From Reinekea thalattae (GTDB lineage Bacteria; Pseudomonadota; Gammaproteobacteria; Pseudomonadales; Natronospirillaceae): a stretch of 64,000 nt of DNA. The DNA is taken from contig NZ_VKAD01000001.1 of the NCBI RefSeq assembly GCF_008041945.1, positions 434,001 to 498,000 on the forward strand, given 5' to 3'. Below are positions 12,662 through 30,784 of the stretch, one piece after another. Below the pieces are notes generated by a model. It was given only the letters and a program-made list of their open reading frames with translations, had not been told where the DNA came from and ran no database searches. The stretch's first letter is position 1, and every line of letters starts with the position of its first letter. A program made the translations under genes and the position numbers.

Positions 12662-15600
12662 ATGAATCCAAAGCTAGAAAAACCGTCAGCCCAAGAGGCT
12701 AAAAACAGCATTCATCGGGTCGGCAGACAGTATAACCAGTGGGTTGCGGATCAAACCTTAGAAGATTTCGCGCTCCGTTTTACCGCGCGTAAAGCCCGCC
12801 ATATGAGTATCCGAGTGGTGGGTACCACAGCATTAGGCGCAACCGCTTTTTTAGCGCTGGAGAGTTTGGCCGCGGCGGTAACCTTTGGCTACGGTACTGT
12901 GAATGCCGTTGCTGCTATCCTTGCTGTGGCGATTATCTTTTTTATTACTGGCTTTCCTATCAGTCGTTATTCGGCCAAATATGGTTTGGATATTGATTTA
13001 CTCACTCGCGGTGCTGGCTTTGGCTATTTAGGTTCAACCATTACCTCGCTGATTTATGCCACTTTCACCTTTATCTTTTTTGCCATCGAAGCATCGATTT
13101 TAAGTTCGGCCTTGCACTTCCTATTTGGCATTCCTATGTCGTTAGCCTATGTCATTTGCGCCTTAGTCGTTATACCTATTGTGATGCGTGGCATTACTGC
13201 TATCAGTAAATTTCAAGTCGGCACTCAGGCATTATGGTTAGCACTACAGCTGGCAGCCCTAGTTGTGGTGCTGGTATTTGATTGGCGAGAATTTAACAGC
13301 TGGGCAAGCTATACGCCCGAACATTTACCGGATGCACATCGCTTTAATTGGCTGTATTTCGGTGCTGCGTCGTCGGTGTTATTTGCCCTTATTGCACAGA
13401 TTGGTGAGCAGGTCGATTACTTGCGATTTATGCCAGAAAAAACCGAAAAAAATAAAAGACAATGGTGGTTTTGGTTAGTGCTGGCTGGGCCGGGTTGGGT
13501 ATTTATTGGTGTTGCAAAAATGTTATTGGGTTCCTTTTTAGCGCATTCGGCGTTGATGAAAGGTGTGCCGATTCTTGAGGCTGGTGATCCAACAAAAATG
13601 TACCAGCGAGTGTTTGAATACTTTGTTTATTCTGAACGGATTGCGTTAATTCTTGCTGCGGTTATGGTGATTATTTCGCAAATGAAAATTAACCTGACCA
13701 ATGCTTATGCAGGCTCTATTGCTTGGTCGAACTTTTTTTCTCGATTGACCCATACGCACCCGGGCAGAGTCGTTTGGTTAGTGTTTAACGTTATGCTTGC
13801 CTTACTGCTCATGGAGTTGGGCGTACATAAGGTTTTAGAGTCTATTTTAAGTGTATTTGCTTTTGTAGCGGTCAGCTGGTTGTGTTGTGTTTCGGCGGAT
13901 TTATTAATTAACAAGCCTTTAGGTCTAAGCCCTAAACATATTGAGTTTCGCCGAGGTTATTTATTCGATATTAACCCCGTTGGTTTTGTTTCGATGTTTG
14001 TCGCTGCTTTTGTTGGCTTTGCTTTTTATATGGGCTGGTTTGGCGAGCCAGTTCGAACGCTGGGGCACTTTGCCACCATCATCGTTTGTTTTGTCATGGT
14101 GCCTTTACTGGCATGGCTAACGAAAGGTAAGTATTACTTAGCGCGACAGCCTGAAGATCTTTCTCAGCCGAGTTGCCAATGTGGTGTTTGTGAAAATACC
14201 TTTGAGAAAGAAGATATGCTGTTTTGCCCAGCCTATCAAAGCCATATTTGTTCTCTTTGTTGCTCTTTGGATTCACGCTGTTTAGATCAGTGCAAAGATA
14301 CCTCTTCCGGTTTTACACCATTACTGGTGATTGTTCCGCGCTACATTCGTAACCTATTGCTCGGTTGGACAGGGCGGTTTTTTGCCTGGTTTATCGTGGT
14401 TAATGCGGCAATGGCGGCACTGCTTTCTTTGGTTTATCAACACATGACACTGCAAAGCCAGCGCGAATTACCCTATTTAGAAAACGGTCTATTAACACTG
14501 TTTTTTATCTTAATGATTATCAACGGTGTGGTGATTTGGTTATTTTTATTAGCGCACGAATCACGAAAAAATGCGCAACAGGAGTCGAACCAACAAACCA
14601 AAAAGCTGATGCAAGAAATACAGGCACACGAACTAACCGATGCCGCGCTACAAAATGCTAAAGAGTTAGCAGAAAATGCCAGTGCAGCAAAAAGCCGTTA
14701 TCTTTCTGGTATTAGCCATGAATTACGCACGCCGCTGCAATCTATTTTAGGCTATACCCAATTACTTAAAGAACGACAAGATACACCCTCGACTCACCAA
14801 AAAAGTTTGGATTCTATACATCGTGGCGGTCAATATTTGTCCGATCTAATAGAAGGCTTGTTAGACGTTTCTAAGATTGAAGCGGGTAAGCTAGAACTGC
14901 ATCAAACGGTGGTTAATTTCCCAGAATTGGTGTATCAAATTTCTGAAATGTTTCATATGAAAGCCGCAGCCAAGGGGCTGCCGTTTAATCTTAATGTGCA
15001 GGATGTCTTGCCTGGTTGGGTGAAAACCGATGAAAAGCGCTTACGCCAAGTGCTGATCAACCTATTATCAAATGCGATTAAATACACTGATAAAGGCGCA
15101 GTTGATTTTGAAATTCGCTATCGAACTCAAGTGGCGGAGTTTATTGTCCGTGATACTGGCTGTGGTATTCCTGCCGACCAGCATGAGCGCATATTTTCAC
15201 CCTTTGAGCGTATTCAACGGGACGATAGCAAGTCGGTGTCTGGCACAGGCTTAGGCTTGACCATTGTTAAGCTGCTGGTTGAAGTGATGGGCGGTGATTT
15301 GCAGCTTAAATCGGAACTCAACAAAGGCAGCGAATTTAAAGTTTCTTTGATGTTGCCTTGGGTTCAGGGGGATATTCATGAGCTGGATAATCAAGAATCT
15401 ATCGTTGGTTATCAGGCTGATAAGAAAAGTATTTTTATTATCGATGATGATACTTATGTTCGTGAAATGCTCACCGATCTATTGCAGCCTTTAGGCTTTG
15501 ATATTCACTGTGCCGAAAACGGACGTGATTGTTTAAACCGATTGGATCAGCTAAGCAGTGATTTATTTATTATCGATGTCTCAATGCCTGGCATGAATGG

Positions 15601-16033
15601 ATTTGAACTGGCCAAAGAATTAAGGTTGCAACGCGTGTCACAACCGATTTTAATGTTGTCGGCGAATGCACAGGTTCCGCCAGAAAACTTTAAAAAACAA
15701 TACGGCTATTCCGATTATTTGATTAAGCCGATACGTAACCAAGCCTTATTGGATGCCATTAGTTTTCATTTGAATATTAGTTGGCAGACCACGGCCAAAT
15801 CACTTTCAAACCTACAGGCTAAGCATAGTCGGCGGCCTATACAGATCGTCGATAGTCCGGAACTTGCCGAGCTGATCAGTGCGTCTGAGATCGGCTTTAA
15901 AAGAGGGATTTTAGAAGCACTTAAAACCTTAAGGACTAAGGCGTTAATATCAGAAGAGCAATTTGCACGTCTGAGCGATCATGCTGAGTCGATGCAATTT
16001 AATCGGATCAAAGAGGATATTGAGGTTATTTAG
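12662..16033 (+). CDS. Hybrid histidine kinase with N-terminal NCS1-type permease domain
   Basis: A 1123-aa fusion. Residues 1-490 look like a full nucleobase:cation symporter-1 (cytosine/purine permease) domain with about 12 membrane segments. Residues 505-544 hold nine Cys and one His (C505, C507, C510, C522, C530, C533, C534, C540, C544), a possible metal site. Two more membrane helices and a coiled coil follow, then HisKA with phospho-His686 in SHELRTPL, HATPase boxes NLLSNAIKYT, DTGCGIP and GTGLGLTIVK, and a receiver domain with Asp972 in IIDVSMPGMNG. The ATG has GGGGGC upstream. Its stop abuts the ATG of the response-regulator gene, and urea transport genes follow, so it probably senses urea or a related nitrogen compound (inference). 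Confidence 0.92.
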   Translation: MNPKLEKPSAQEAKNSIHRVGRQYNQWVADQTLEDFALRFTARKARHMSIRVVGTTALGATAFLALESLAAAVTFGYGTVNAVAAILAVAIIFFITGFPISRYSAKYGLDIDLLTRGAGFGYLGSTITSLIYATFTFIFFAIEASILSSALHFLFGIPMSLAYVICALVVIPIVMRGITAISKFQVGTQALWLALQLAALVVVLVFDWREFNSWASYTPEHLPDAHRFNWLYFGAASSVLFALIAQIGEQVDYLRFMPEKTEKNKRQWWFWLVLAGPGWVFIGVAKMLLGSFLAHSALMKGVPILEAGDPTKMYQRVFEYFVYSERIALILAAVMVIISQMKINLTNAYAGSIAWSNFFSRLTHTHPGRVVWLVFNVMLALLLMELGVHKVLESILSVFAFVAVSWLCCVSADLLINKPLGLSPKHIEFRRGYLFDINPVGFVSMFVAAFVGFAFYMGWFGEPVRTLGHFATIIVCFVMVPLLAWLTKGKYYLARQPEDLSQPSCQCGVCENTFEKEDMLFCPAYQSHICSLCCSLDSRCLDQCKDTSSGFTPLLVIVPRYIRNLLLGWTGRFFAWFIVVNAAMAALLSLVYQHMTLQSQRELPYLENGLLTLFFILMIINGVVIWLFLLAHESRKNAQQESNQQTKKLMQEIQAHELTDAALQNAKELAENASAAKSRYLSGISHELRTPLQSILGYTQLLKERQDTPSTHQKSLDSIHRGGQYLSDLIEGLLDVSKIEAGKLELHQTVVNFPELVYQISEMFHMKAAAKGLPFNLNVQDVLPGWVKTDEKRLRQVLINLLSNAIKYTDKGAVDFEIRYRTQVAEFIVRDTGCGIPADQHERIFSPFERIQRDDSKSVSGTGLGLTIVKLLVEVMGGDLQLKSELNKGSEFKVSLMLPWVQGDIHELDNQESIVGYQADKKSIFIIDDDTYVREMLTDLLQPLGFDIHCAENGRDCLNRLDQLSSDLFIIDVSMPGMNGFELAKELRLQRVSQPILMLSANAQVPPENFKKQYGYSDYLIKPIRNQALLDAISFHLNISWQTTAKSLSNLQAKHSRRPIQIVDSPELAELISASEIGFKRGILEALKTLRTKALISEEQFARLSDHAESMQFNRIKEDIEVI

Positions 16034-16951
16034 ATGTCTATTGAATTAACTGGCAAGCTCGCATTAGTCGTCGACGATTCGCCGGATGCATTGTCTTTTG
16101 TACACGATGCCCTTGAAGCCTCAGGTATCGATGTTTTAGTTGCCTTAGAGGGCAAGCAAGCCATCAGCATTGTTAAAAAAATGAAGCCCGACATCATTTT
16201 GCTCGATGCATTAATGCCGCAAATGGATGGTTTTGAAACTTGCCGACAATTAAAGTCAGATAAAGCATTAGCCGCCATTCCTGTTATTTTTATGACCGGC
16301 CTGACCGATACCAAAGACATTGTCAAAGGCTTAGAGGCGGGCGGTGTCGACTACCTAACCAAACCAGTCAAACCGGATGAATTGATCGCTCGTATCAAGG
16401 TGCATCTGACTAACGCGAGCCTAACCCGAGCAGCTTATTCTGCATTGGATCAGAACGGCCAAATGATGATGGCAGTAAATAGTCAGGGTGAACAACTTTG
16501 GTCAACGCCTCAGGCCTATACGCTCTTGAGTAAAGCGGGTTTAAGGAGTGAGCAGAGTTGGCAATTGTTTTCTCAGCAATTGGCGCAATGGCTCGCCAAT
16601 AAACCCAATGTGGGTTACCAGCTCCAGCTTGAAAACCCCGACTATCGATTAGCGGTTCGGCTAATGTTTGATCACGAAAGCGAATGGGTATTGCGGTTAA
16701 TTGACGGTGAACGGCCAACCGGATCAGAGCTATTACGCAACCAGTTAGAGATTACTGAGCGAGAATCGGAAGTTTTATATTGGCTGGCCAATGGTAAGGC
16801 AAATCGCGAAATCGCTGAAATATTATCGATGAGTCCTCGCACCGTGAACAAACACCTAGAGCAGATCTACGTTAAATTAAATGTCGATAATCGCACTAGC
16901 GCCGCAGGCATTGCACTCAAAATATTTGCCCAAGAGAACGCATTGCTTTAA
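16034..16951 (+). CDS. LuxR-type (REC-HTH) response regulator
   Basis: A 305-aa regulator. The receiver domain spans residues 8-125 with acidic pair DD at 14-15, phospho-acceptor Asp58 (ILLDALMPQMDG) and Lys in YLTKPVKP. A linker of about 110 aa follows, longer than in most NarL-type proteins. The C-terminal LuxR helix-turn-helix (about 240-300) includes TEREsEVLYWLANGKANREIA and SPRTVNKHL. The ATG directly follows the kinase stop, with GAGGTT as ribosome site, so the two form one operon and cognate pair. The likely targets are the adjacent urt and ure genes (inference from position). Confidence 0.92.
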   Translation: MSIELTGKLALVVDDSPDALSFVHDALEASGIDVLVALEGKQAISIVKKMKPDIILLDALMPQMDGFETCRQLKSDKALAAIPVIFMTGLTDTKDIVKGLEAGGVDYLTKPVKPDELIARIKVHLTNASLTRAAYSALDQNGQMMMAVNSQGEQLWSTPQAYTLLSKAGLRSEQSWQLFSQQLAQWLANKPNVGYQLQLENPDYRLAVRLMFDHESEWVLRLIDGERPTGSELLRNQLEITERESEVLYWLANGKANREIAEILSMSPRTVNKHLEQIYVKLNVDNRTSAAGIALKIFAQENALL

Positions 16952-16972: not shown

Positions 16973-16990
16973 ATACGTCAATTAACGTAT
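16973..16990. promoter_or_regulatory. 18-bp palindrome upstream of urtA, candidate response-regulator site
   Basis: ATACGTCAATTAACGTAT is symmetric at eight of nine base pairs. It lies 22 nt after the regulator stop and about 100 nt before the urtA start, where an activator site would be expected. A second small inverted repeat (CCAGT/ACTGG, 17049-17063) lies nearer the start codon. Binding is untested. Confidence 0.55.
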
Positions 16991-17091
16991 CTCGTTAGGG
17001 GATTCGCCCCATAGTCTTACATTCCTCGGATCGCATAATGCTGCATAGCCAGTTCAATACTGGATCATCCAAAACGCTACGAGGAACTTCC

Positions 17092-18372
17092 ATGAAACTT
17101 AAAACTGTACTAACAGGTGCAGCCTTTGCCGTCTCTGCGACTATCGCTGCGACAGCATACGCTGCAGACACAATCAAAGTGGGTGTGCTGCATTCACTTT
17201 CTGGCACCATGGCTATCTCAGAAACGACATTGAAAGACACCGTTCTGATGATGATCGAAGAGCAAAATAAAAAGGGTGGTTTATTGGGCAAGCAACTTGA
17301 AGCAGTTGTTGTTGACCCTGCATCCAACTGGCCTCTTTTTGCCGAAAAAGGGCGCGAGTTAATCACTCAAGAAAAGGTCGATGTTATCTTTGGTAGCTGG
17401 ACATCGGTTTCTCGAAAATCGGTATTGCCGGTTCTTGAAGAGCTAAATGGATTGATGTTCTACCCAGTACAGTACGAAGGCGAAGAGAGTTCTAAAAATG
17501 TTTTCTATACCGGCGCTGCGCCAAACCAACAGGCGATTCCAGCGGTAGATTACCTGATGAATGACCTTGAAGTTGAGCGCTGGGTATTGGCCGGTACCGA
17601 CTATGTTTACCCTCGTACCACCAATAAAATTTTAGAAGCTTACCTTGAGTCTAAGGGCGTAGCGAAAGAAGACATCATGATCAACTATACGCCATTTGGT
17701 CATTCCGATTGGCAGTCGATCATTGCCGATATCAAAAAATTTGGTAGCGAAGGCAAAAAAACAGCGGTTGTTTCTACCATTAATGGCGATGCAAACGTGC
17801 CATTCTATAAAGAGTTAGGCAACCAGGGTGTTTCTGCTGAAGACATTCCAGTAGTGGCATTCTCAGTGGGTGAAGAAGAGTTGTCTGGTTTCGATACCGC
17901 GCCTTTAGTCGGTCACTTAGCGGCATGGAACTACTTCCAGTCAGTAGAAAGTGACGCCAATACTGCCTTTATCAAAAAATGGAAAGCCTTTGCTGGTGAA
18001 GATCGTGTCACCAATGACCCAATGGAAGCGACTTACATCGGTTTCAATCTTTGGGTAAATGCCGTAGAAAAAGCTGGCACCACCGATGTTGATGCAGTTG
18101 AGCAAGCGATCATTGGCCTGAGCGTACCAAACCTAACCGGCGGTACTGCAACCATGGGTGCAAACCATCACTTAACTAAGCCTGTTTTAATTGGTGAAAT
18201 CCAAGACGACGGCCAGTTTGAAGTGGTTTGGGAAACAGACGGCGAAGTAGCAGGCGATGCATGGTCAGACTTCTTACCTGAGTCAGCGAAACTGATTGCC
18301 GATTGGACAGCCCCAATCAAGTGCGGTAACTACAACACCGAAACAGGTGTTTGTTCTGGACAAAATTACTAG
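17092..18372 (+). CDS. urtA: Urea ABC transporter, periplasmic urea-binding protein UrtA
   Basis: The 426-aa substrate-binding protein of the high-affinity urea importer. A signal peptide covers about residues 1-24 (MKLKTVLTGAAFAVSATIAA), then DTIKVGVLHSLSGTMAISE, the typical UrtA start. The chosen ATG at 17092 has GAGGA at 17081; a longer frame from 17038 would put 18 extra residues before the signal peptide. Characteristic blocks are FYPVQYEGEESSKNVFYTGA and DPMEATYIGFNLW. It is separated from urtB by a 139-nt structured spacer, which may allow excess binding protein over permease. Confidence 0.96.
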   Translation: MKLKTVLTGAAFAVSATIAATAYAADTIKVGVLHSLSGTMAISETTLKDTVLMMIEEQNKKGGLLGKQLEAVVVDPASNWPLFAEKGRELITQEKVDVIFGSWTSVSRKSVLPVLEELNGLMFYPVQYEGEESSKNVFYTGAAPNQQAIPAVDYLMNDLEVERWVLAGTDYVYPRTTNKILEAYLESKGVAKEDIMINYTPFGHSDWQSIIADIKKFGSEGKKTAVVSTINGDANVPFYKELGNQGVSAEDIPVVAFSVGEEELSGFDTAPLVGHLAAWNYFQSVESDANTAFIKKWKAFAGEDRVTNDPMEATYIGFNLWVNAVEKAGTTDVDAVEQAIIGLSVPNLTGGTATMGANHHLTKPVLIGEIQDDGQFEVVWETDGEVAGDAWSDFLPESAKLIADWTAPIKCGNYNTETGVCSGQNY

Positions 18373-18480: not shown

Positions 18481-18511
18481 CCTTGATTTACATTTCGGAT
18501 TGGGTGAGTTT

Positions 18512-20131
18512 ATGAATCGATACCGCTGTCATTACCTACTAAGTAACAGTCTAAAATTATTATTCGGTTTTTTACTGTTCGTCTTTTCTAGTTTTTCTTA
18601 TTCGCAAACCATTGCAGAATTACACCATGAATTAACCAACGTAACGCTCAGTAAAACCAAGTCAGTGCTTGAAAAAATAGTACAGACCGATGATGAAACG
18701 AACCTGCATTTATTTGAGACCATGTTGGCAGGCAACCTTTACTTTGATACATCTGATCACTCCTTGTTGGTATTAGAGAAGGTCGATGGTGTTGAACAAA
18801 TTAAAGACTTCTATAGCGCCGAAGTACGGGCTATTGATCGCTCCGATGCAAAAAAAATCCGAGTCAATAACGCGTTACGTACCTATTTAAGAGCCAGTAT
18901 TGCGCGTATTCAACTAACAGCTAAAGATGACACCGTGCGCAAAGAGGCTGTTGAGTCGTTATATAAAAAAGTTGATAAAACAACCTTTGCAACCGTTGTT
19001 GAACTGCGTAGCCAAGAGACTAACAAGGCGGTTCAGTCGGCAATGGATTTACTGATTGATATGAACGATGCTCAGTTCAACAAAAATGAGCAGCAACGTA
19101 TCGCAGCGATTAACCGATTGGCGAAAAGCCTAGAACCTGCAGTCAGAAATATGCTGGTCACTATCGCTAATCAAACAGAGGTGCCAAAGGTTGCAGCCGC
19201 GGCAACGCAAGCGTTACAAACAATCGAAGCAAAAATAGGCTTTTATAACAAACTCGACACAGTATTTTTTGGCTTAAGTTTGGGCTCTATTTTGTTGTTA
19301 GCCTCAATTGGCTTAGCCATTACCTTTGGCGTAATGGGTGTTATTAATATGGCCCATGGCGAAATGATTATGCTCGGTGCTTACACCACTTACGTGGTTC
19401 AACTACTGATGCCCAATCACATTGATCAGTCCATTATTGTTGCGATACCGCTGGCATTTACCGTTTCTGCGTTAGTTGGCATTGTGATTGAACGAGGCGT
19501 TATTCAATTTTTGCATGGCCGACCGTTAGAAACGCTATTAGCAACCTTTGGTATTAGCCTTATTTTGCAACAGTTGGTAAGAAGCATATTTTCTCCACTC
19601 AATCGACAGGTCAATACGCCTAGCTGGATGAGTGGTTCGGTTGAAATTAATCCGGTTTTGTTTATTACCTTAAACCGTCTTTATATTTTCTTTTTTGCGC
19701 TCATCGTCTTTGCTGCCTTGCTCGTAATTTTAAGAAAAACATCGCTTGGCTTAAATGTACGGGCGGTTTCGCAAAATCGAAATATGGCTCGCGCACTGGG
19801 GATAAAAACCGCTCGGGTCGACGCTCTAACCTTTGGTCTCGGTTCTGGCATTGCCGGAATTGCAGGTGTTGCCTTGAGTCAGTTAACCAATGTTGGCCCT
19901 AACTTAGGCCAAAGCTACATTATCGACTCCTTTATGGTGGTGGTTTTTGGTGGCGTTGGTAATTTATTCGGCACTCTGGTTGCTGCCTTCACGCTGGGTA
20001 TTGCCAATAAATTATTTGAACCGATGGTTGGCGCAGTGCTGTCCAGCATTTTGGTGTTGGTGTTTATTATTCTATTTATTCAAAAACGCCCTAAAGGCCT
20101 GTTTCCACAAAAAGGGAGGGCGGCTGAATGA
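18512..20131 (+). CDS. urtB: Urea ABC transporter permease UrtB
   Basis: A 539-aa branched-chain-amino-acid-type permease. A signal-like hydrophobic segment (about residues 12-33) is followed by a roughly 210-residue soluble, helix-rich periplasmic region, then the LivH-like membrane domain from about residue 245 (GLAITFGVMGVINMAHGEM). The long N-terminal extension is usual in proteobacterial UrtB. The ATG at 18512 with GGTGAG just upstream is preferred over the TTG at 18500. It overlaps urtC by ATGA. Confidence 0.95.
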   Translation: MNRYRCHYLLSNSLKLLFGFLLFVFSSFSYSQTIAELHHELTNVTLSKTKSVLEKIVQTDDETNLHLFETMLAGNLYFDTSDHSLLVLEKVDGVEQIKDFYSAEVRAIDRSDAKKIRVNNALRTYLRASIARIQLTAKDDTVRKEAVESLYKKVDKTTFATVVELRSQETNKAVQSAMDLLIDMNDAQFNKNEQQRIAAINRLAKSLEPAVRNMLVTIANQTEVPKVAAAATQALQTIEAKIGFYNKLDTVFFGLSLGSILLLASIGLAITFGVMGVINMAHGEMIMLGAYTTYVVQLLMPNHIDQSIIVAIPLAFTVSALVGIVIERGVIQFLHGRPLETLLATFGISLILQQLVRSIFSPLNRQVNTPSWMSGSVEINPVLFITLNRLYIFFFALIVFAALLVILRKTSLGLNVRAVSQNRNMARALGIKTARVDALTFGLGSGIAGIAGVALSQLTNVGPNLGQSYIIDSFMVVVFGGVGNLFGTLVAAFTLGIANKLFEPMVGAVLSSILVLVFIILFIQKRPKGLFPQKGRAAE

Positions 20132-21273
20132 AGCTATTTTCCAGTATTTTTAACTTTAAACGCTCAGGCGAACCTGGCGCGGTGATTGTGCCGTTTGTGG
20201 CCTTGTTATTTGTCGTGACGCTGTTTGCTGCCTTAGGTAATTTAGTGTTTCCAGAAGGCTCTGTGCTGCACGTTTCTACCTACAGCATTACGTTGTTAGG
20301 TAAGTATCTGTGCTACGCCATGCTGGCATTAGCAGTGGATGTGGTGTGGGGTTATTGCGGAATTTTAAGTCTAGGTCACGCGGCGTTTTTTGCCTTAGGT
20401 GGTTATGGCATGGGCATGTATTTGATGCGCCAAATTGGAGATCGCGGCGTTTATGGTAATGCCTTACTGCCGGACTTTATGGTGTTTTTAAATTGGGAGT
20501 CTTTGCCATGGTATTGGTTTGGCTTCGATCACTTTGGCTTTGCTATGTTAATGGCGTTGCTGGTGCCTGCGTTGCTGGCGTTTGTTTTCGGTTGGTTAGC
20601 ATTCCGCTCACGTGTCACGGGTGTGTACTTATCGATTATGACGCAAGCGCTCACCTATGCCTTAATGTTGGCGTTTTTCCGAAATGAAATGGGCTTTGGT
20701 GGAAATAATGGCCTAACGGATTTTAAAGATATTTTAGGCTTTAGTTTGCAAAGCGATACGACTCGAGTGGTGCTGCTCGCTATTACATCCTTGCTGCTGT
20801 CGTTATTGCTGATATTAAGTCATGCCATTATGAAATCGCGATTCGGCAAAGTCATTGTCGCAGTGCGAGACAGTGAAAGCCGAGCTCGGTTTTTAGGTTA
20901 TCGAACCGAGCGCTATAAGGTTTGGCTGTTTGTCTATTCTGCCGTTATCGCCGCGATTGCCGGAGTCCTCTATGTGCCGCAAATTGGCATTATTAATCCC
21001 GGTGAATTTACACCCATTAATTCCATCGAAATTGTTATTTGGGTTGCCATTGGCGGGCGTGGCACTTTAGTGGGTGCCGTACTGGGTGCGTTGTTAGTCA
21101 ATTATGCCAAAACACGGTTAACGGCAATATTTCCAGAGGCGTGGTTATTTGCCTTAGGCGCTTTGTTTGTTGTTGTGACACTTTTTTTGCCAAAAGGTCT
21201 GTTCGGTTTAGCAGGTTCAATACGCAAAAAATTATTGCCATCGCCAGCCGCTGTTAAGGAGGTGAAATCATGA
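20128..21273 (+). CDS. urtC: Urea ABC transporter permease UrtC
   Basis: A 381-aa LivM-like permease, partner of UrtB in the inner membrane. It has about ten hydrophobic segments, and conserved blocks GYCGILSLGHAAFFALGGY and WVAIGGRGTLVGAVLGA. It overlaps urtB and urtD by 4 nt each, so the transporter genes are translated as a coupled unit. Confidence 0.95.
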   Translation: MKLFSSIFNFKRSGEPGAVIVPFVALLFVVTLFAALGNLVFPEGSVLHVSTYSITLLGKYLCYAMLALAVDVVWGYCGILSLGHAAFFALGGYGMGMYLMRQIGDRGVYGNALLPDFMVFLNWESLPWYWFGFDHFGFAMLMALLVPALLAFVFGWLAFRSRVTGVYLSIMTQALTYALMLAFFRNEMGFGGNNGLTDFKDILGFSLQSDTTRVVLLAITSLLLSLLLILSHAIMKSRFGKVIVAVRDSESRARFLGYRTERYKVWLFVYSAVIAAIAGVLYVPQIGIINPGEFTPINSIEIVIWVAIGGRGTLVGAVLGALLVNYAKTRLTAIFPEAWLFALGALFVVVTLFLPKGLFGLAGSIRKKLLPSPAAVKEVKS

Positions 21274-22127
21274 AATGGTTAAATGACTTCCGAGAGCTGT
21301 TTCGGCGCGATCAAGTTTGGTCGGTAATGTTACCTAAGCAGGTTGATGTCAATCTAGATAAAAATATCGCGCTTTATATCGAGGATTTAAACGTCAGTTT
21401 TGATGGCTTTAAAGCCATTAACCAGCTCAACCTTTATATCAAAGAAGGTGAGCTGCGCTGTTTGATTGGTGCAAACGGTGCCGGAAAAACCACGCTGATG
21501 GATATTGTCACAGGTAAAACAAAACCGGATTCCGGTTCGGTTTGGTTTGGTCAAAATCACGATCTTTTAGGCTACGATGAAGCCGCGATTGCGCGATTAG
21601 GTATTGGTCGAAAATTTCAAAAGCCGACAGTGTTTGAAGAGCTTTCAGTTTTTGACAATTTGGAATTGTCGTTAAAAACCAATAAGTCGGTTTTGCCAAC
21701 TTTATTTGCTCGGCTAAGTCATCAGCAAGATAAACGAATTGCACAGGTGCTAGAGACCATTGGTCTTACAGAACAGCGCCAACTTGCCGCAGGTGCTTTG
21801 TCTCATGGTCAAAAGCAGTGGCTTGAAATTGGTATGTTGCTAGCTTCCGATTGCAGGTTGCTGTTAGTTGATGAACCCGTCGCGGGAATGACCGCAGAAG
21901 AAACCGAAAAAACTGCCGAGCTATTAAATAAGCTGGCAGGTGAACATACGGTTGTCGTGGTTGAACATGATATGGAATTTGTACGCTCTATTGCTCGCAC
22001 CGTTACTGTATTGCATCAGGGCTCAGTTTTAGCCGAAGGCAGTATGGATGATATTCAAAAAAATAAAGAGGTGATCGAAGTTTATCTCGGTGAAGAGCAC
22101 GCAGAAGGTTCGGAGGCAGCTTTATGA
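21270..22127 (+). CDS. urtD: Urea ABC transporter ATPase UrtD
   Basis: A 285-aa LivG-like ATPase. It shows Walker A GANGAGKTT, the UrtD-type signature LSHGQKQWLEIGM, Walker B LLLVDEPVAGMT and switch His in VVVEHDMEF. An N-terminal stretch of about 30 residues precedes the ATPase fold. ATGA overlaps link it to urtC and urtE. Confidence 0.95.
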   Translation: MKWLNDFRELFRRDQVWSVMLPKQVDVNLDKNIALYIEDLNVSFDGFKAINQLNLYIKEGELRCLIGANGAGKTTLMDIVTGKTKPDSGSVWFGQNHDLLGYDEAAIARLGIGRKFQKPTVFEELSVFDNLELSLKTNKSVLPTLFARLSHQQDKRIAQVLETIGLTEQRQLAAGALSHGQKQWLEIGMLLASDCRLLLVDEPVAGMTAEETEKTAELLNKLAGEHTVVVVEHDMEFVRSIARTVTVLHQGSVLAEGSMDDIQKNKEVIEVYLGEEHAEGSEAAL

Positions 22128-22819
22128 TTCGTATTAAAAATTTGAACCAACACTATGGTGGTACTCAGATTTTGTGGGACCTAAACCTCGATATAGCCGA
22201 AGGTTCTTGCACCTGCATTATGGGGCGTAATGGCGTTGGTAAGACAACGCTGCTGAAGGCGATTATGGGTTTATTACCAACCACGAGTGGCGAGATTGAG
22301 TTTCAGGGCAAAGCCTTGCAAAACCGCAGTGCAGAGTTTCGTGCACCTGCGGGTATTGGTTACGTGCCACAGGGGCGTGAAATTTTTCCATTATTAACCG
22401 TTGAAGAAAACTTACGGCTCGGCTTACAGGCGCGTAACGACGGTTTAAAAACCATTCCAGAAAAGGTTTATCAGCTGTTTCCGGTGTTAAAAGAAATGCT
22501 CAACCGTCGCGGTGGAGATCTTTCTGGTGGGCAACAACAACAATTGGCGATTGGTCGTGCTTTGGTGACGGACCCGAGAGTGCTGATTTTAGATGAACCT
22601 AATGAAGGCATTCAGCCGAATATCGTCAGCCAAATTGGCGACGTTATTTTAAAGCTGAATGAGCAGGATGGATTAACGGTCATCCTAATTGAACAAAAAT
22701 TAGGCTTTGCACGCAGAGTAGGTAAGGAGTTTCGTCTTATGGAAAAGGGCAGCATTGTCGCGGCTGATCGAATGGAAAACCTTAATGATCAGTTAATTCG
22801 CCAATACTTGGCCGTCTAA
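22124..22819 (+). CDS. urtE: Urea ABC transporter ATPase UrtE
   Basis: A 231-aa LivF-like ATPase. It shows Walker A GRNGVGKTT, signature LSGGQQQQL, Walker B VLILDEPNEGIQPNIV and EQKLGFA in the switch region. The last base of its stop codon is the first base of the ureD ATG, joining urea import to urease assembly in one transcript. Confidence 0.95.
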   Translation: MIRIKNLNQHYGGTQILWDLNLDIAEGSCTCIMGRNGVGKTTLLKAIMGLLPTTSGEIEFQGKALQNRSAEFRAPAGIGYVPQGREIFPLLTVEENLRLGLQARNDGLKTIPEKVYQLFPVLKEMLNRRGGDLSGGQQQQLAIGRALVTDPRVLILDEPNEGIQPNIVSQIGDVILKLNEQDGLTVILIEQKLGFARRVGKEFRLMEKGSIVAADRMENLNDQLIRQYLAV

Positions 22820-23781
22820 TGATGAATCTATTGCAGCAAGCATTGCTGACTGATCAGGTGGAACTTAATGCGCCAGAGAGGCAGGCAAATAAACAGTCAG
22901 ATAACAAAGAACTAGGCAGCAGAAGGTTAGAGAATAAAGAGCCAGATAGCCAAGCATGGCACGCTAACCTGATGTTGCGTTTTGCTCAAACGCAACGAGG
23001 GGTTCGTTTAGTAGAAAAGCAGCACCAAGGGCCGCTTTACGTTCAAAAACCTTTTTACCCAGAAGGGGTTGAGGCGCCGCACGTCTACTTGCTTCATCCT
23101 CCTGGCGGCTTGGTCTCCGGTGATTGCTTGAGTATCGACATCAATGTTGAACACCAAGCGCACGCACTAATTACAACGCCGGGCGCTGGACGGCTGTATA
23201 AATCAAGGCCTGATCAGCGCTTACAGCGTCAGCAGGTGACTTTAAATTTAGCCAGCGCAAGTTCTATTGAGTGGTTGCCGATGGAAGCCATCGTGTTTCC
23301 AGATGCCAACGCCTCAGCCAGCAACTGCATTCACTTAGAAGAAAACGCCCATGTTATTTTTTGGGATGTGCTCAGCCTTGGTTTACCGGCGAACCAAAAA
23401 ACCTTTGACCAAGGCAGCATTAGCCAAAACATAAAAATATATCGAAAGCAGCGCTTACTGTTACAAGAGCGAATGCAGGTTAATGACGTTAATCGAAACA
23501 TCTTAGAAAGTGCAGCTGGCTTTGCCGGTTATCAAAATCAGGGCGTTTTAATAGCGGGGCCTTTTACAACAGAGCCAGAAGAATTATTGCATCACTTGCG
23601 CGAGCAATTTACCGATTGTGATGAACCCTTAGGCATTACCTATGTGGGTGAATTTTTAGTGATTAGAGCATTGTCTAAACGCAGTGATTTAATTCGTCAG
23701 CGCTTTGTTTGTTGTTGGTCCTATATTCGCCCGGCGTTACTGAATCGACCCATTTGTGAGCCAAGAATATGGAACACCTAA
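22819..23781 (+). CDS. ureD: Urease accessory protein UreD
   Basis: A 320-aa urease accessory protein that binds apo-urease as scaffold for UreF and UreG during nickel insertion. Family blocks include HPPGGLVSGD, TTPGAGRLYKS and WLPMEAIVFPDA. It starts ATGATG overlapping the urtE stop by one base. The first about 45 residues are a charged, Gln/Asn/Lys-rich lead not typical of short UreD proteins and probably flexible. Confidence 0.95.
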   Translation: MMNLLQQALLTDQVELNAPERQANKQSDNKELGSRRLENKEPDSQAWHANLMLRFAQTQRGVRLVEKQHQGPLYVQKPFYPEGVEAPHVYLLHPPGGLVSGDCLSIDINVEHQAHALITTPGAGRLYKSRPDQRLQRQQVTLNLASASSIEWLPMEAIVFPDANASASNCIHLEENAHVIFWDVLSLGLPANQKTFDQGSISQNIKIYRKQRLLLQERMQVNDVNRNILESAAGFAGYQNQGVLIAGPFTTEPEELLHHLREQFTDCDEPLGITYVGEFLVIRALSKRSDLIRQRFVCCWSYIRPALLNRPICEPRIWNT

Positions 23782-23980: not shown

Positions 23981-24283
23981 ATGGAACTGTTACCGAGGGA
24001 GAAAGACAAGTTACTTATTTTTACCGCAGCGTTGCTAGCCGAGCGACGCTTGAATCGTGGTTTGAAATTGAATTATCCAGAAGCCATGGCTTACCTCAGC
24101 ATGGAAATTATTGAAGGCGCACGCGATGGTAAAACCGTCGCCGAGCTCATGTCTTATGGCAAGCAGCTATTGTCGGCAGACCAAGTCATGGAAGGTGTTG
24201 CAGATTTAATTCATGAAGTGCAGGTTGAGGCGACTTTCCCAGATGGAACCAAATTGGTAACGGTTCACGAACCCATCTGTTGA
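23981..24283 (+). CDS. ureA: Urease gamma subunit UreA
   Basis: The small structural subunit of urease, 100 aa, the usual length. The [23 protein letters not shown] start and [20 protein letters not shown] block are diagnostic. A GAGAGAAG stretch precedes the ATG. UreA, UreB and UreC form the (ABC)3 cytoplasmic enzyme that hydrolyses urea to ammonia and carbamate. Confidence 0.97.
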
Positions 24284-24342
24284 GTGGGTTTTTACTTAAA
24301 CAGAAAGATATTTTTTAACCGATGATAAAAATGGGGTTAGCT

Positions 24343-24669
24343 ATGATTCCAGGTGAAATACAGGTTGCTCAAGGCGACATCGTGCTAAATGAAGGCAGAA
24401 AAACCTACCGGCTTTATGTCGAAAATACTGGCGATCGGCCCATTCAAATTGGCTCGCATTATCACTTTTTTGAAACCAATCCAGCGTTGAAGTTTGAGCG
24501 CCAGCCAAGCCTTGGTTATCGGCTGAATATTGCATCAGGCACTGCCATTCGATTTGAACCGGGACAAGGTCGCGAAGTTGAATTAGTCGAGTACGCGGGC
24601 ACAAAAACAATTTATGGTTTTCGCGGTGAAGTGATGGGGCCGTTGGCAACGGAGGCAGATAATGACTAA
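24343..24669 (+). CDS. ureB: Urease beta subunit UreB
   Basis: Structural subunit, 108 aa from the [19 protein letters not shown] start, which is the family norm. An in-frame ATG at 24322 would add seven residues but lacks a ribosome site, while GGGG precedes the chosen ATG. Blocks [19 protein letters not shown] and GFRGEVMG are typical. The gene overlaps ureC by 8 nt. Confidence 0.95.
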
Positions 24670-26371
24670 AACAATGGACCGTAATGCTTATGCTCAAATG
24701 TTTGGGCCAACCACAGGCGACCGGCTTCGACTCGCCGATACTGAACTGTGGATTCAGGTAGAAAAAGACTTCACCCTGTACGGCGATGAAGTGAAGTTTG
24801 GTGGCGGTAAAGTTATCCGCGATGGCCAGGGGCAATCTCAACGGACATCCCGTGAAACTATGGATCTGGTCATTACCAATGCGTTAATTTTAGATCATTG
24901 GGGCATTGTTAAAGCCGATGTCGGCGTCAAAGAAGGCCGTATTGCCGGCATAGGCAAAGCAGGAAACCCTGATATTCAAGATAAGGTTGATTTAATTATT
25001 GGCCCCAGTACCGAAGTGATCGCAGGTGAAGGTTCGATTTTAACCGCAGGCGGAATCGATGCACACATTCACTATATTTGCCCGCAGCAAGTAGAAGAGG
25101 CGTTGATGTCTGGCGTTACTACGATGATTGGCGGAGGTACTGGGCCAGCAACAGGAACCAATGCCACTACTTGCACGCCGGGACCTTGGTACATCGGCAA
25201 GATGCTGCAAGCAACTGACAGCATGCCGATGAATTTTGGCTTTTTAGGCAAGGGTAATGGCAGCTTACCAGAGGCTTTAGAAGAGCAGCTCGAAGCTGGC
25301 GCCATGGGATTAAAACTGCATGAAGATTGGGGCACAACACCGGCTTCGATCGATAACTGTTTAACGGTGGCAGATAAATACGACGTTCAAATAGCAATTC
25401 ATACCGACACCTTGAACGAGTCGGGTTTTGTTGATGACACCATCGCGGCGTTTAAAGATCGGGTCATTCATACTTATCACACTGAAGGTGCAGGCGGTGG
25501 TCATGCGCCCGATATTATTCGCGCCTGTGCCTTGCCAAATGTGCTGCCAAGCTCGACTAATCCAACACGGCCTTACACGCACAACACCGTGGATGAGCAT
25601 CTCGATATGCTGATGGTGTGTCACCATTTGGATTCAAATATCGCTGAAGATGTTGCCTTTGCCGATTCGAGAATTCGTAAGGAAACCATTGCCGCAGAAG
25701 ATTTATTTCATGATCTCGGCGCGTTCAGCATGATCGCATCGGACTCACAAGCAATGGGGCGAGTTGGTGAAGTGGTAACGCGGACTTGGCAAACGGCACA
25801 TAAAATGAAAACTCAGATGGGATTATTGAGTGAAGACATAGAGATTGGGGCAGATAATTTTCGCGCTAAACGCTATGTAGCCAAGTACACGATCAACCCA
25901 GCAATCGCTCATGGTATTGCGCATGAGGTTGGCTCGATTGAAGCCGGTAAATTGGCAGACTTAGTTTTATGGAAGCCAGCATTTTTTGGCATTAAGCCGA
26001 GTTTGATTCTTAAGGGTGGCATGATCGCCGCGGCGCCGATGGGAGACCCAAATGCTTCCATTCCCACACCTCAGCCGGTGCATTACCGAGAAATGTTTGG
26101 TGCTTTAGGTAAGGCTGCGGCGGCGACATCGGTGACTTTTGTTTCTCGGGCAGCACTGAATAATAAATTAGCTGAAAAGCTCGGTTTAGATCGTCAACTT
26201 ATTGCCTGTGGTAATACTCGCGATATCGCCAAAACCGACATGATTCATAACAGCTGGATGCCCGATGTCAGTGTCGATCCGCAAACCTATGAGGTGCGCG
26301 CAGACGGTCAGTTGATCAGCTGTGAGCCAGCAACAGAATTGCCATTAGCACAACGCTATTGTTTGTTTTAG
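24662..26371 (+). CDS. ureC: Urease alpha (catalytic) subunit UreC
   Basis: The 569-aa catalytic subunit carrying the two-nickel active site. Nickel ligands His135 and His137 ([11 protein letters not shown]) and carbamylated Lys218 (GLKLHEDWG) are visible, along with the GAGGGHAPD loop and the flap MVCHHLD with its Cys and catalytic His. The ATG has GGAGG within ureB as ribosome site. No deviation from a functional enzyme is apparent. Confidence 0.98.
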
Positions 26372-26475: not shown

Positions 26476-26919
26476 ATGTTAGAAGCCATTGAAAGATTAG
26501 GCTTGCACTGTGAACAGCCTGCTGTCGCAATTGTCACGCTGAATCACGAACAGCGTGAGCGTGGCCGATTAAAATTAGTCAGCGATCAGGGTGAAGAAGT
26601 TCGCGTGTTTTTAGAGCGAGGAAAAGCCCTATTGGTTGGCGAGTATTTGCGCAGCCGCTGCGGTCAAATTATTCAAGTTCGAGGGGCTACGGAAGCGGTT
26701 GCTCATGCCAGCTGTGAAGATTGGCACACCTTTTCTCGTGCTTGTTATCACTTGGGTAATCGGCATACCAAAGTCGAGGTAGGGGATCGCTGGTTACGAA
26801 TAAAGCCTGATCATGTATTGGAAGACATGCTTCATCAAATTGGTCTGGTGGTGAGTTTAGAGCAGGCTGTGTTCAACCCAGAAAATGGAGCCTATGCGCA
26901 TGGACATCACCACCACTAG
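26476..26919 (+). CDS. ureE: Urease accessory protein / nickel metallochaperone UreE
   Basis: A 147-aa nickel chaperone delivering metal to urease. The N-terminal peptide-binding domain includes HEQRERGRLKL, and the C-terminal metal-binding domain has YHLGNRHTKVEV. The protein ends with AHGHHHH, a short His-rich tail of the nickel-binding kind. AGGAG precedes the ATG. Its 3' end overlaps the start of ureF by about 20 nt. Confidence 0.95.
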   Translation: MLEAIERLGLHCEQPAVAIVTLNHEQRERGRLKLVSDQGEEVRVFLERGKALLVGEYLRSRCGQIIQVRGATEAVAHASCEDWHTFSRACYHLGNRHTKVEVGDRWLRIKPDHVLEDMLHQIGLVVSLEQAVFNPENGAYAHGHHHH

Positions 26920-27574
26920 TTCAGCGCTATTTAAACTGCTACAGCTTTCGAGCGTTAGCTTACCGGTCGGTGGTTACAGTTTTTCTCAAAGTTTGGAGTA
27001 TGCCATTGAGTCCGGCTCGATCAACGATGCCGAGCAAACCAAAGCTTGGTTGCAAACTCAGTTATTTGAATCGATCGCGCGAGTAGATTTACCAGTATTG
27101 TTTGGCGTGATGAATTCGGATGTTGACGATGTAGAAAACTGGCGGCGGTGGAACGATATTTCCATGGCGAACCGAGAAACCAAAGAACTGCGGCTAACAG
27201 AGTCTGCCATGGGCGAAGCCTTAAAACGACTATTAACCAGCTTTGCCGTGCCAGTGCCTGAGGTCGTAGATAATCAATACAGCTTTGTCGCGCTTTATGG
27301 TTTAGCGGCAAACTATTGGTCGTTAGAAGCGCAGCTTACCGCTCATGGCCTTGTTTGGTCTTGGTTAGAAAATCAAATTTCAGCAGCGACCAAGTTGGTG
27401 CCATTGGGGCAATCACAAGCGCAACAGCTATTGCTGGAATTACCGTCGAGTTTAGCGCCAGCCATTGAATTGGCACAGACGTTAGATGAAGACTCTATGG
27501 GTGGCTCGCTGCCCTTATTAGCAATTTATAGCTCGCATCATGAAACACAATACAGCCGATTATTTCGATCTTAG
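26900..27574 (+). CDS. ureF: Urease accessory protein UreF
   Basis: A 224-aa accessory protein that recruits UreG to the UreD-urease complex. The family block [20 protein letters not shown] lies near the N-terminus. The ATG at 26900 with GGAG at 26887 was chosen; in-frame ATGs at 26894 and 26885 are alternatives. The gene overlaps ureE, so it is translationally coupled. Confidence 0.93.
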
Positions 27575-27585
27575 AGGGTGAGAAA

Positions 27586-28245
27586 ATGACAAAACAAACA
27601 TCGCTAACAAAACAAACCTTAAGAGTCGGCGTTGGCGGCCCTGTTGGTTCCGGCAAAACAGCATTACTGCGATCGCTCTGTGCCGCATTGAAGGATCACT
27701 ACAATATCGCTGTAGTCACTAACGATATTTACACCAAAGAAGATGCGCAGTTTTTAACGCGACACAACGCATTAGAGGCTGATCGTATCATTGGCGTAGA
27801 GACCGGCGGTTGCCCGCATACTGCCATTCGTGAAGATGCCTCAATGAATTTAGCTGCTATCGATACGCTGATGCAGCGCCATGGCGAGCTGGATGTGATC
27901 TTTGTCGAAAGTGGCGGCGATAACCTCAGTGCGACCTTTAGCCCAGAGCTGTCAGACTTTACCATCTATGTTATTGATGTCTCAGCAGGCGATAAAATCC
28001 CGCGTAAAGGTGGCCCGGGCATTACACGTTCAGACCTGTTTGTGATTAACAAAACAGATTTGGCGCCGTTGGTGGGTGCCTCGTTAGAGGTCATGGATCA
28101 GGACACTCGTAAAATGCGCGGCAGCAAACCCTTTGTGTTTTCTAACCTAAAAATAGCAGAGGGTTTGGATCAGATTATTAATATTATCGTCAGTGAAGGC
28201 ATGCTTGAGGTTAAGGATTTACCACCGGCCAAGGCTGTTGTGTAG
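27586..28245 (+). CDS. ureG: Urease accessory GTPase UreG
   Basis: A 219-aa SIMIBI-class GTPase powering nickel transfer into urease. It shows P-loop GPVGSGKT, the metal-binding CPH motif in [15 protein letters not shown], the FVESGGDNL switch and guanine-specificity NKTD. GGTGAG precedes the ATG, 11 nt after ureF. It is the last urease gene. Confidence 0.97.
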
Positions 28246-29099: not shown

Positions 29100-29356
29100 T
29101 CGGGTAAAGGTTCGTGCGCCAATAAATCGAAAAGGGCAGTGAGCAGCGCTATCTATTTCGATAAGGGCGAGTCAAAATAGACAGAATAAATACAATAAAA
29201 ATTGCCCTAGATCTAAGATTCTATCGAAAACACGCAGTTTCAGGATGCCATCACCTTACATTGTACTACTTTCGTCGCATAATCGGTGGCGAATGAAGGG
29301 TGCTGGGTTCGTTCGAACCTTAATCTACGGCATTAAAAATGTGGAGTAATGTAGGA

Positions 29357-30784
29357 ATGAAACGATTCACAATCATACTGAGTGTATTGTTGTCTGGTTT
29401 ATTATTGCCGACACTAAGTTTGGCCAACACCGAGGCAACGCATCACACACTTAATCTAAATCTAACCCACGGTTGGTTTGGCTATGCCGCTGTAGCGGTT
29501 TTCGTTATCGCTTATCTGTTCGTTATTTTTGAAGAACAGCTGCATCTGCCTAAATCTAAGCCAGTGATGGTAGCCGCAGGTTTAATTTGGATAATTATTG
29601 CTATTGCTTATCACGCTCACGACCTCGACGGTTTGCATAATTCTATTCAACATAACTTTTTAGAATACGCTGAGCTGTTTTTCTTTTTGCTTGTCGCGAT
29701 GACTTACATAAACGCGATGATGCAACGCGGCGTTTTCGAAGCACTTCGTAATTGGCTGGTCGAGCGAGGCTACAGTTACCGTCAACTGTTCTGGATGACG
29801 GGTGTACTCGCATTTTTTATTTCACCCATTGCTGACAATTTAACCACGGCATTAATTTTATGCGCAGTGGTACTGGCGGTCGGTAAAAATAATGACAAGT
29901 TTGTTGCTTTAGCCTGTATCAATATTGTTGTTGCAGCAAATGCAGGCGGTGCTTTCAGCCCGTTTGGCGATATTACAACGCTGATGGTTTGGCAAAAGGG
30001 TAATGTTCAGTTTGGCCAATTCTTTGCGCTCTTTATTCCATCGGTGGTGAACTTTTTAGTACCAGCAGCGATTATGAATTTTGCCTTACCTAAAGGCCTG
30101 CCAGAAAAAGTCACCGATATCCAAAACTCTAGTGGCAGTGCGCTGAAGCCTGGTGGTCTAGTAATGGTTGGGTTGTTTATTGCAACGATTGTTACTGCGG
30201 TTTGTTTCCATAACTTTTTCAACATTCCACCAGCCTACGGCATGATGTTTGGCTTATCGTATCTGGAATTGTTTGCTTATTATCTGAATCGACGCTCTCA
30301 TCATTGGACTGCACGACCTGATCAGCCACCAGAAAACCAGACTAATCCCTATAAGTTTAATATCTTTAATAAGATTGCTCAGGCCGAATGGGATACGTTA
30401 TTTTTCTTCTACGGTGTCATGATGTCGGTTGGTGGCTTAGGCTTTATAGGCTATCTGTCCATGGCATCGGAGACTATCTACGTTGGCTTAGGTGCCACAA
30501 CCGCTAATATATTAGTTGGCTTTGCCTCGGCAATAGTCGATAACATCCCTGTGATGTTTGCCGTTTTGACCATGCAGCCAGATATGAATTTGTATCAATG
30601 GTTATTGGTGACTTTAACGGCAGGTGTCGGTGGCTCTATGTTATCCATTGGCTCAGCCGCCGGTGTTGCATTAATGGGTCAAGCACGTGGTAAGTATACT
30701 TTCTTTAGTCACTTACGATGGACGCCAGTGATCATCCTAGGTTATTTTGCCAGTATTGGAGTGCATTATTTGATCAACGGCTAA
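29357..30784 (+). CDS. nhaD: Na+/H+ antiporter NhaD
   Basis: An inner-membrane sodium:proton antiporter of the NhaD/arsenite-permease-related family, common in marine and halophilic bacteria. It is 475 aa from the ATG at 29357, which has GTAGGA directly upstream; an in-frame ATG at 29339 adds six residues. A cleavable-looking signal sequence (MKRFTIILSVLLSGLLLPTLS) precedes about 12 hydrophobic segments. Diagnostic blocks are FISPIADNLTTALILCAVV and NAGGAFSPFGDITTLMVWQK. The 239-nt gap before it showed no recognisable regulatory fold. Confidence 0.95.
   Translation: MKRFTIILSVLLSGLLLPTLSLANTEATHHTLNLNLTHGWFGYAAVAVFVIAYLFVIFEEQLHLPKSKPVMVAAGLIWIIIAIAYHAHDLDGLHNSIQHNFLEYAELFFFLLVAMTYINAMMQRGVFEALRNWLVERGYSYRQLFWMTGVLAFFISPIADNLTTALILCAVVLAVGKNNDKFVALACINIVVAANAGGAFSPFGDITTLMVWQKGNVQFGQFFALFIPSVVNFLVPAAIMNFALPKGLPEKVTDIQNSSGSALKPGGLVMVGLFIATIVTAVCFHNFFNIPPAYGMMFGLSYLELFAYYLNRRSHHWTARPDQPPENQTNPYKFNIFNKIAQAEWDTLFFFYGVMMSVGGLGFIGYLSMASETIYVGLGATTANILVGFASAIVDNIPVMFAVLTMQPDMNLYQWLLVTLTAGVGGSMLSIGSAAGVALMGQARGKYTFFSHLRWTPVIILGYFASIGVHYLING

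Follow-up and report, generated by a model that had tools for sequence, protein, structure and literature searches.

The stretch of Reinekea thalattae DNA analysed here (the window; 64,000 nt, positions 434,001 to 498,000 of contig NZ_VKAD01000001.1) encodes, at 12662-16951, a transporter-like histidine kinase and a response regulator directly ahead of genes for urea transport and urease. One open frame at 12662-16033 specifies the 1123-amino-acid (aa) kinase fusion and a second, at 16034-16951, the 305-aa regulator. The regulator gene begins at the base directly after the kinase gene, on the same strand and without a gap, and the "back-to-back" arrangement given in the first-pass annotation is therefore wrong: the two genes stand in tandem on the + strand. 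By Pfam, the kinase has HisKA at residues 676-742 (14687-14887; presumed phospho-acceptor His686), HATPase_c at 789-897 (15026-15352) and a receiver domain (REC) at 924-1033 (15431-15760; presumed phospho-acceptor Asp972), and the regulator has REC (Asp58) and a LuxR-type (GerE) helix-turn-helix (HTH) with Asn272 in its recognition helix. With its own REC domain, the kinase is a hybrid one. Ahead of HisKA lie, in order, an NCS1-fold membrane half (residues 1-500; 12662-14161), a Cys-rich segment (conserved part residues 507-544; 14180-14293) and two more membrane helices at residues ~565-631 (14354-14554), visible in the AlphaFold model, that lead into the signalling helix. The source genome contains a single match to the membrane half. 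We propose as the likely reading that the pair forms a two-component system for urea acquisition, in which an NCS1-type receptor for urea or a similar small amide drives the urt/ure operon. The architecture, the NCS1 fold, the family-wide linkage to urea and amide genes, the association of a DNA site with the kinase, and the covariation of regulator and site are supported in silico.

The urea genes follow the regulator on the same (+) strand. urtA (17038-18372), urtB (18500-20131), urtC (20128-21273), urtD (21270-22127) and urtE (22124-22819) all score above NCBIfam cut-offs, as do ureA (23981-24283), ureB (24322-24669), ureC (24662-26371), ureE (26476-26919; 149.5 against 144 for one model) and ureG (27586-28245). 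UreD (22819-23781) and UreF (26885-27574) had no NCBIfam match at 1e-30, and their names rest on similarity and gene order. Judged by sequence, the system is dedicated to the urea genes in its source genome.

Calling the membrane half NCS1-type needed other evidence than Pfam, because Pfam has no match to it. Residues 1-600 of the kinase gave no Pfam match at E<=1, PF02133 included; residues 1-613 gave no PDB sequence match at E<=1; and no PF02133 match was found in 20 rows of the family alignment A2 at E<=10. An AlphaFold model of residues 1-672, built with 40 family members, reached a mean predicted local distance difference test (pLDDT) score of 78 and a predicted template modelling (pTM) score of 0.78. 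The five best PDB matches to this model in Foldseek are all NCS1 chains (CodB 7qoa twice; Mhp1 2jln, 4d1a and 2x79; E 2.7e-8 to 1.0e-6), and Nramp, APC and SLC5-type structures rank below them, so the fold is LeuT-type and closest to Mhp1/CodB. Relatives bridge the gap in sequence: the stand-alone family member at locus L134 exceeds the PF02133 cut-off (31.8 vs 23.5 bits), as do the distant stand-alone relatives L153 and L154, while L155 and the stand-alone L133 fall below it. Aligned as a family with hhalign, these proteins match an alignment of eight NCS1 proteins with probability 96.2 and L153 with 99.8. On the strength of the model comparison, the PF02133 match of relatives and hhalign, the membrane half is NCS1-type, as the first-pass annotation had it, though diverged beyond Pfam's reach.

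Between the membrane half and the kinase, the same annotation had pointed to nine Cys and a His at residues 505-544. All are present (Cys at 505, 507, 510, 522, 530, 533, 534, 540 and 544, plus His528), but conservation extends to eight Cys only. Cys505 and His528 each appear in 1 of 81 alignment rows, in both cases the window protein itself; the other eight, with the pattern C-x2-C-x11-C-x7-C-x2-CC-x5-C-x3-C, are kept in 80 of the 81 rows, the 81st (L008) being empty. A wider set retains all eight in 156 of 158 rows. One exception, L161, is a trimming artefact; the other, L134, is real, and this stand-alone protein of a urease operon keeps 507, 510, 530 and 533 and is without 522, 534, 540 and 544. 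That L134 loses one half of the Cys and keeps the other suggests, from the alignment, two separate metal sites. The domain is nearly private to the family: across 274 genomes, source genome included, its profile found 20 matches, 19 of them in proteins of the kinase/permease family and the last one weak and holding stops. It is beta-rich in the full membrane-half model, and modelled in isolation it has a mean pLDDT of 80, with ~90 in residues 21-50 of 73. Among the 50 Foldseek titles listed for the isolated model, 27 name RING, PHD or FYVE domains, the best E of 0.47 being not significant. Searched by sequence in the PDB, the domain matched C2H2 zinc fingers at whole-sequence E 0.0025 or worse, for the most part along the first CxxC half alone; Pfam offered no convincing match (best E 0.02). 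We infer from the model a RING/FYVE/PHD-like fold in which the bound metal would be zinc, probably at two sites.

The gene neighbourhoods of relatives carry much of the functional argument. At least 594 stretches matched a pattern and at least 496 of them encode a relative of the membrane half; the best 80 of these at least 496 were kept as the named loci, in which linkage was judged within 10-kb flanks. Within that distance 56 of the 80 have urt/ure genes, in several gene orders. Three of the 24 unlinked loci (L021, L047 and L078) sit on short contigs, and a search of the genomes of the other 21 found UrtA above cut-off elsewhere in 19. The first-pass annotation had named homologues generally not linked to urt/ure genes as the outcome that would count against its urea link, and these figures contradict such an outcome. 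In the class sample the family occurs in 18 of 369 genomes, and UrtA is above cut-off in 14 of 17 genomes with the fusion vs 61 of 352 others. In the phylum sample (family in 56 of 398 genomes), 48 of the 50 loci L164-L213 lie beside urea or amide clusters, and a contig end truncates each of the remaining two, L179 and L212. The six copies of that sample in G107, G446, G509 and G548 (L140, L151, L152 and L156-L158) all have urea or amide genes next to them, and the fragments in G427, G586 and G637 are outside the fetched loci. By amide cluster we mean urt-like ABC transporter genes together with formamidase, FmdB or amidase genes, named from annotated plasmid records and elsewhere by similarity.

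Outside the window's clade the linkage is broader than the urea genes first proposed, most of the fetched copies sitting by formamide/amide genes. Loci L133-L213 include 78 in which a permease match was found, and these divide into 44 amide, 21 urea, 1 both and 12 neither, in a set that includes the outgroup permease L153, four plasmids (one of them "neither") and two stand-alone copies; L144 is amide by threshold, has a UreD match and carries a doubtful label. The named and unnamed sets share one locus, L038 and L164 encoding the same permease. Seven genomes have two fetched fused copies, and in four (G509, G575, G596 and G728) the copies are split between urea and amide, the remaining genomes being amide/amide (G446), amide/neither (G249) and neither/neither (G137). 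On a 90-row tree (37 urea, 34 amide and 19 unlabelled rows; quick method), the urea/amide label needs 6 changes vs a shuffled mean of ~24, and at least 4 changes are forced by well supported branches. A permease specificity code for urea vs amide was sought and abandoned: in a comparison of 36 urea-linked with 31 amide-linked rows, chosen by clade, none of the permease columns divides the two groups cleanly.

Several observations accompany these loci. Among 72,556 plasmid records, 527 carry a relative, 342 of them Klebsiella; on a conjugative plasmid of Klebsiella quasipneumoniae (L160) the relative adjoins urt, formamidase and aliphatic amidase genes, and the Sinorhizobium meliloti plasmid matches H12-H15, H17, H18, H24, H26 and H42-H44 are split into 2-4 pieces. 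An unassigned gene of 378-419 aa stands between kinase and urtA in L145 (8897-10156) and L146 (5977-7113). UrtB of the window (543 aa) has a long extension at its N-terminus (the UrtB model starts at residue 253, and there is a weak HEAT match) that is absent from amide-cluster UrtB of ~305 aa, e.g., in L138 and L161. Slightly downstream of the urease cluster, at 29339-30784, is an NhaD-type sodium/proton antiporter gene.

The tandem arrangement is typical of the family, with a LuxR-type regulator in tandem after the kinase in 146 of 158 loci. The other 12 comprise contig ends (L021, L033, L047 and L078), the stand-alone L134, the outgroup L153, the variants L135, L136, L147, L156 and L157, and L133, which was scored this way because its stand-alone copy was the script's reference; a regulator adjoins the L133 kinase. 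In several of these loci the membrane module has another output or none. Locus L134 (G279) encodes a 540-aa kinase-less permease after ureG in a urease operon, in a genome with no UrtA above cut-off. Directly after it comes a NicT-like nickel transporter gene (L134:8080-9069), which scores below its model's cut-off. Locus L133 (G263) encodes a 559-aa stand-alone permease that retains the eight Cys; formamidase and amidase genes adjoin it, and its gene is divergent from a fusion. Genome G137, which has no UrtA match, bears the module of NCS1 domain, 8-Cys domain and two helices fused in L135 (7349-11020) to PAS-GGDEF-EAL, i.e., cyclic di-GMP enzymes, and in L136 (9023-12841) to PAS-PAS-histidine kinase-REC; in L156 and L157 it sits on a kinase without REC, ~3 kb from a formamidase gene. 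The outputs so far fused to the module are thus hybrid kinases, a simple kinase without REC, PAS-kinase-REC and PAS-GGDEF-EAL. We give even weight, for and against, to the broader proposal that the module is a portable receptor for urea or small amides that has been placed on several outputs, with the NCS1 and Cys part also working alone as a urea/formamide transporter where it stands in urease and formamidase operons, and with repeated switches between urea and amide.

A DNA site links the regulator to urtA. In 48 gaps between divergent kinase and urtA-like genes, some from close relatives and the window excluded, TACG-N8-CGTA occurs in 36, and in three letter shuffles no repeat of this kind exceeded a count of 8; the full repeat in relatives is TACGTCA-NN-TGACGTA. 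Across the 64 kb of the window the core is matched exactly once, by TACGTCAATTAACGTA at 16974-16989 (+), in the 86-bp gap between regulator and urtA. The form TACGTNNNNNNACGTA is found once in the 2.94-Mb genome, at this site, with 3 occurrences of its backward control pattern. About one exact core match is expected by chance in 64 kb, so only its position is informative, and the same holds for this genome count of TACGTNNNNNNACGTA and for the named loci, whose 1.58 Mb contain 35 core sites (~24 expected by our own reckoning). Allowing one mismatch in the window was uninformative (12 found vs 15.3 expected) and was dropped. Of the 25 named loci that have UrtA in range, 23 show a core site <=450 nt upstream (L062 and L070 are without; L009 is also in the discovery set).

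The strict form of the site, TACGTYANNTRACGTA, tracks the kinase. In the 61 class genomes with UrtA and no family member it occurs once, on another contig than UrtA, so none of the 61 has it upstream of urtA. Of the 21 genomes whose kinase lacks a urtA in its fetched flanks, 19 have UrtA, and in 17 of these 19 a strict site stands 178-272 nt before the start of the UrtA match (G751 has one extra), a difference from 0 of 61 with Fisher p ~2e-15, kinship ignored. The two misses retain a core site (G758) and one intact half (G749), a looser view applied to the misses and not to the controls. An urtA outside the fetched flanks is not always distant: the flank is cut by a contig end in L077, L017, L032, L050 and L061, and in G749, G751, G755, G758 and G760 urtA and the kinase seem to be 10-20 kb apart, provided that the contig numbers correspond. 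Elsewhere in the class sample, 4 of 17 other family genomes have strict sites (G052, G138, G197 and G249); those of G138 and G249 are beside amide-type urtA, that of G052 immediately precedes the kinase, and in G197 there are three sites, of which one lies 1.4 kb ahead of the UrtA match.

The regulator and its site also appear to have changed together. Across 65 regulator/site pairs, HTH residues were compared with the base after TACG. Residue 272, which we take to be the position of the base-contacting Lys188 of NarL, is Asn in 41 of 41 regulators whose site has T on both sides (TACGT/ACGTA). Where C is on both sides (TACGC/GCGTA, n=14) the residue is Asp in 6, Thr in 4, Asn in 2, His in 1 and Lys in 1, several Asp rows being close relatives; mixed sites have Asn272 in all six T/C cases, two Asp and one Asn in the three C/T cases, and Thr in the single A/T case. 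Downstream of the site, a NATA element at 20 nt (18-21) recurs in 22 of 24 urtA promoters (at most 8 in 200 letter shuffles), including the window, where CATA at 17010-17013 (+) may serve as the -10 element. This spacing suits an activator centred near -40. Taken on sequence grounds, the regulator-urtA link has strong in silico support in the window's wider clade.

We propose the following mechanism. The NCS1-type domain would act as a transporter-derived receptor, or "transceptor," that binds urea or a closely similar small amide, a ligand assignment with moderate support, and that may also transport it. Its conformational change would pass through the 8-Cys, zinc-finger-like domain and the two helices to the kinase, which would phosphorylate the adjacent LuxR-type regulator. 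The regulator is predicted to bind TACGTCA-NN-TGACGTA, ~40 bp ahead of the point where urtA transcription is predicted to start, and to activate urtABCDE and the downstream urease genes, and in relatives the same system would be plugged into formamide/acetamide operons. Some results weigh against this proposal. Of the 80 named loci, 24 have no urea genes within their flanks, eight of these being cut by contig ends, and the genome of L082 has no UrtA match. The core site is absent from 12 of the 48 discovery gaps. The sharp figure of 17 of 19 comes from relatives in the window's own clade; among other class genomes with kinase and UrtA, the strict site is present anywhere in the genome in 4 of 13 vs 1 of 61 without the kinase (Fisher p 0.003). 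Kinship inflates all of these counts.

The ligand itself invites another explanation, namely that the NCS1 domain binds a different nitrogen compound (hydantoin, allantoin, cytosine or an ammonium-related signal) and that the urea and amide genes respond to a general nitrogen need. NCS1 members usually carry nucleobases, hydantoins or allantoin, and urea- and amide-linked copies have similar permease cores; with no column separating them, the ligand could be common to both, e.g., a nitrogen signal. We nevertheless consider this unlikely, given the stand-alone copies in a urease operon and beside formamidase genes, the urea or amide genes at 48 of the 50 phylum-sample loci (nucleobase and hydantoin genes were not searched for), and the single genomic occurrence of TACGTNNNNNNACGTA, which is not spread across a nitrogen regulon.

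A nickel or redox input through the Cys segment, as the first-pass annotation suggested, here taken to gate urease expression, is the least probable of the alternatives, and we reject it as the main input. Urease needs nickel, eight Cys are conserved, and a NicT-like gene adjoins one stand-alone copy. That copy, however, is the one with half of its Cys lost, and the same eight Cys are equally conserved in one stand-alone permease and in the formamide-linked copies and the GGDEF-EAL fusion, the latter two with no urease genes in the fetched stretch, which argues against nickel sensing; the near-confinement of the domain to this family and a model nearest to zinc folds, though not significantly so, point the same way. 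As for the DNA site, the direction of control is not readable from sequence, and the regulator might repress or another protein might bind the repeat. We hold this to be quite improbable, since the site and residue 272 of the neighbouring regulator vary together, none of the 61 kinase-less genomes has the strict form ahead of urtA, and the spacing to the -10-like element resembles that of activator sites.

The proposed urea system has partial parallels among described sensors. In the accessible parts of the literature, the SLC5/STAC kinases CbrA, CrbS/MxtR and RpuS carry a transporter domain on a histidine kinase, and CrbS is described with a hybrid REC, a LuxR-type CrbR and an inverted repeat in CrbR target promoters (PMC5436829, PMC5715377, PMC9100948, PMC13022988). 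The window pair shares the transporter-kinase fusion with all of these, and the hybrid REC, LuxR-type regulator and inverted-repeat target with CrbS/CrbR. It differs in its NCS1-type membrane half, in the 8-Cys domain and two helices that replace STAC/PAS, in the tandem regulator, in its linkage to urea/amide operons and in a different DNA repeat. No SLC5 membrane domain was detected in the window protein, as NCS1 outranks SLC5-type structures in Foldseek and none is among the five Pfam matches; nor was a STAC four-helix domain, the 8-Cys domain and two long helices occupying that place and the Pfam matches including no STAC (whether Pfam has such a model was unchecked). With a different membrane fold and no STAC-like bundle, the window system lies outside the SLC5/STAC family. 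Ks-Amt5 is a nitrogen-related transporter fused to a histidine kinase, of the Amt fold, and we know of no Cys domain or urea linkage in it. It is named as an ammonium transporter-kinase in the available text of PMC12918730. With Mhp1 and CodB (PF02133) the window domain shares fold and distant sequence kinship, but it is unmatched by PF02133, fused to a kinase and linked to urea/amide genes.

Two reports come close to the genes themselves. In Ectopseudomonas guguanensis G3, a hybrid kinase and LuxR-type regulator are described beside a second urtABCDE, with fmdA at the next locus tag (PMC13296017, 2026); compared by description only, this layout is like that of the window, and NCS1 domain, family and function go unrecognised in the portions available. 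A strain with an amiE-fmdA-fmdB-urtABCDE cluster and without amiC/amiR grows on formamide and acetamide, and the accessible parts of that report do not recognise a sensor (PMC13209695). The open-licence PMC literature, so far as its text was available, yielded no description of an NCS1-kinase fusion and no membrane receptor kinase for urea, subscription papers being mostly outside that search. A transporter-fused kinase for urea/formamide genes thus appears to be a kind of small-molecule sensor for which no description was found.

In both sea and soil, urea is important as a source of nitrogen. If the proposed urea system is correct, the short list of transporter-kinase sensors would gain another transporter fold. 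The system would also bring a coupling domain that is new, candidates for a family of urea/formamide transporters, and a DNA site that can mark the target operon in related genomes. Should the portable module also hold true, it would represent a new class of transporter-derived sensor.

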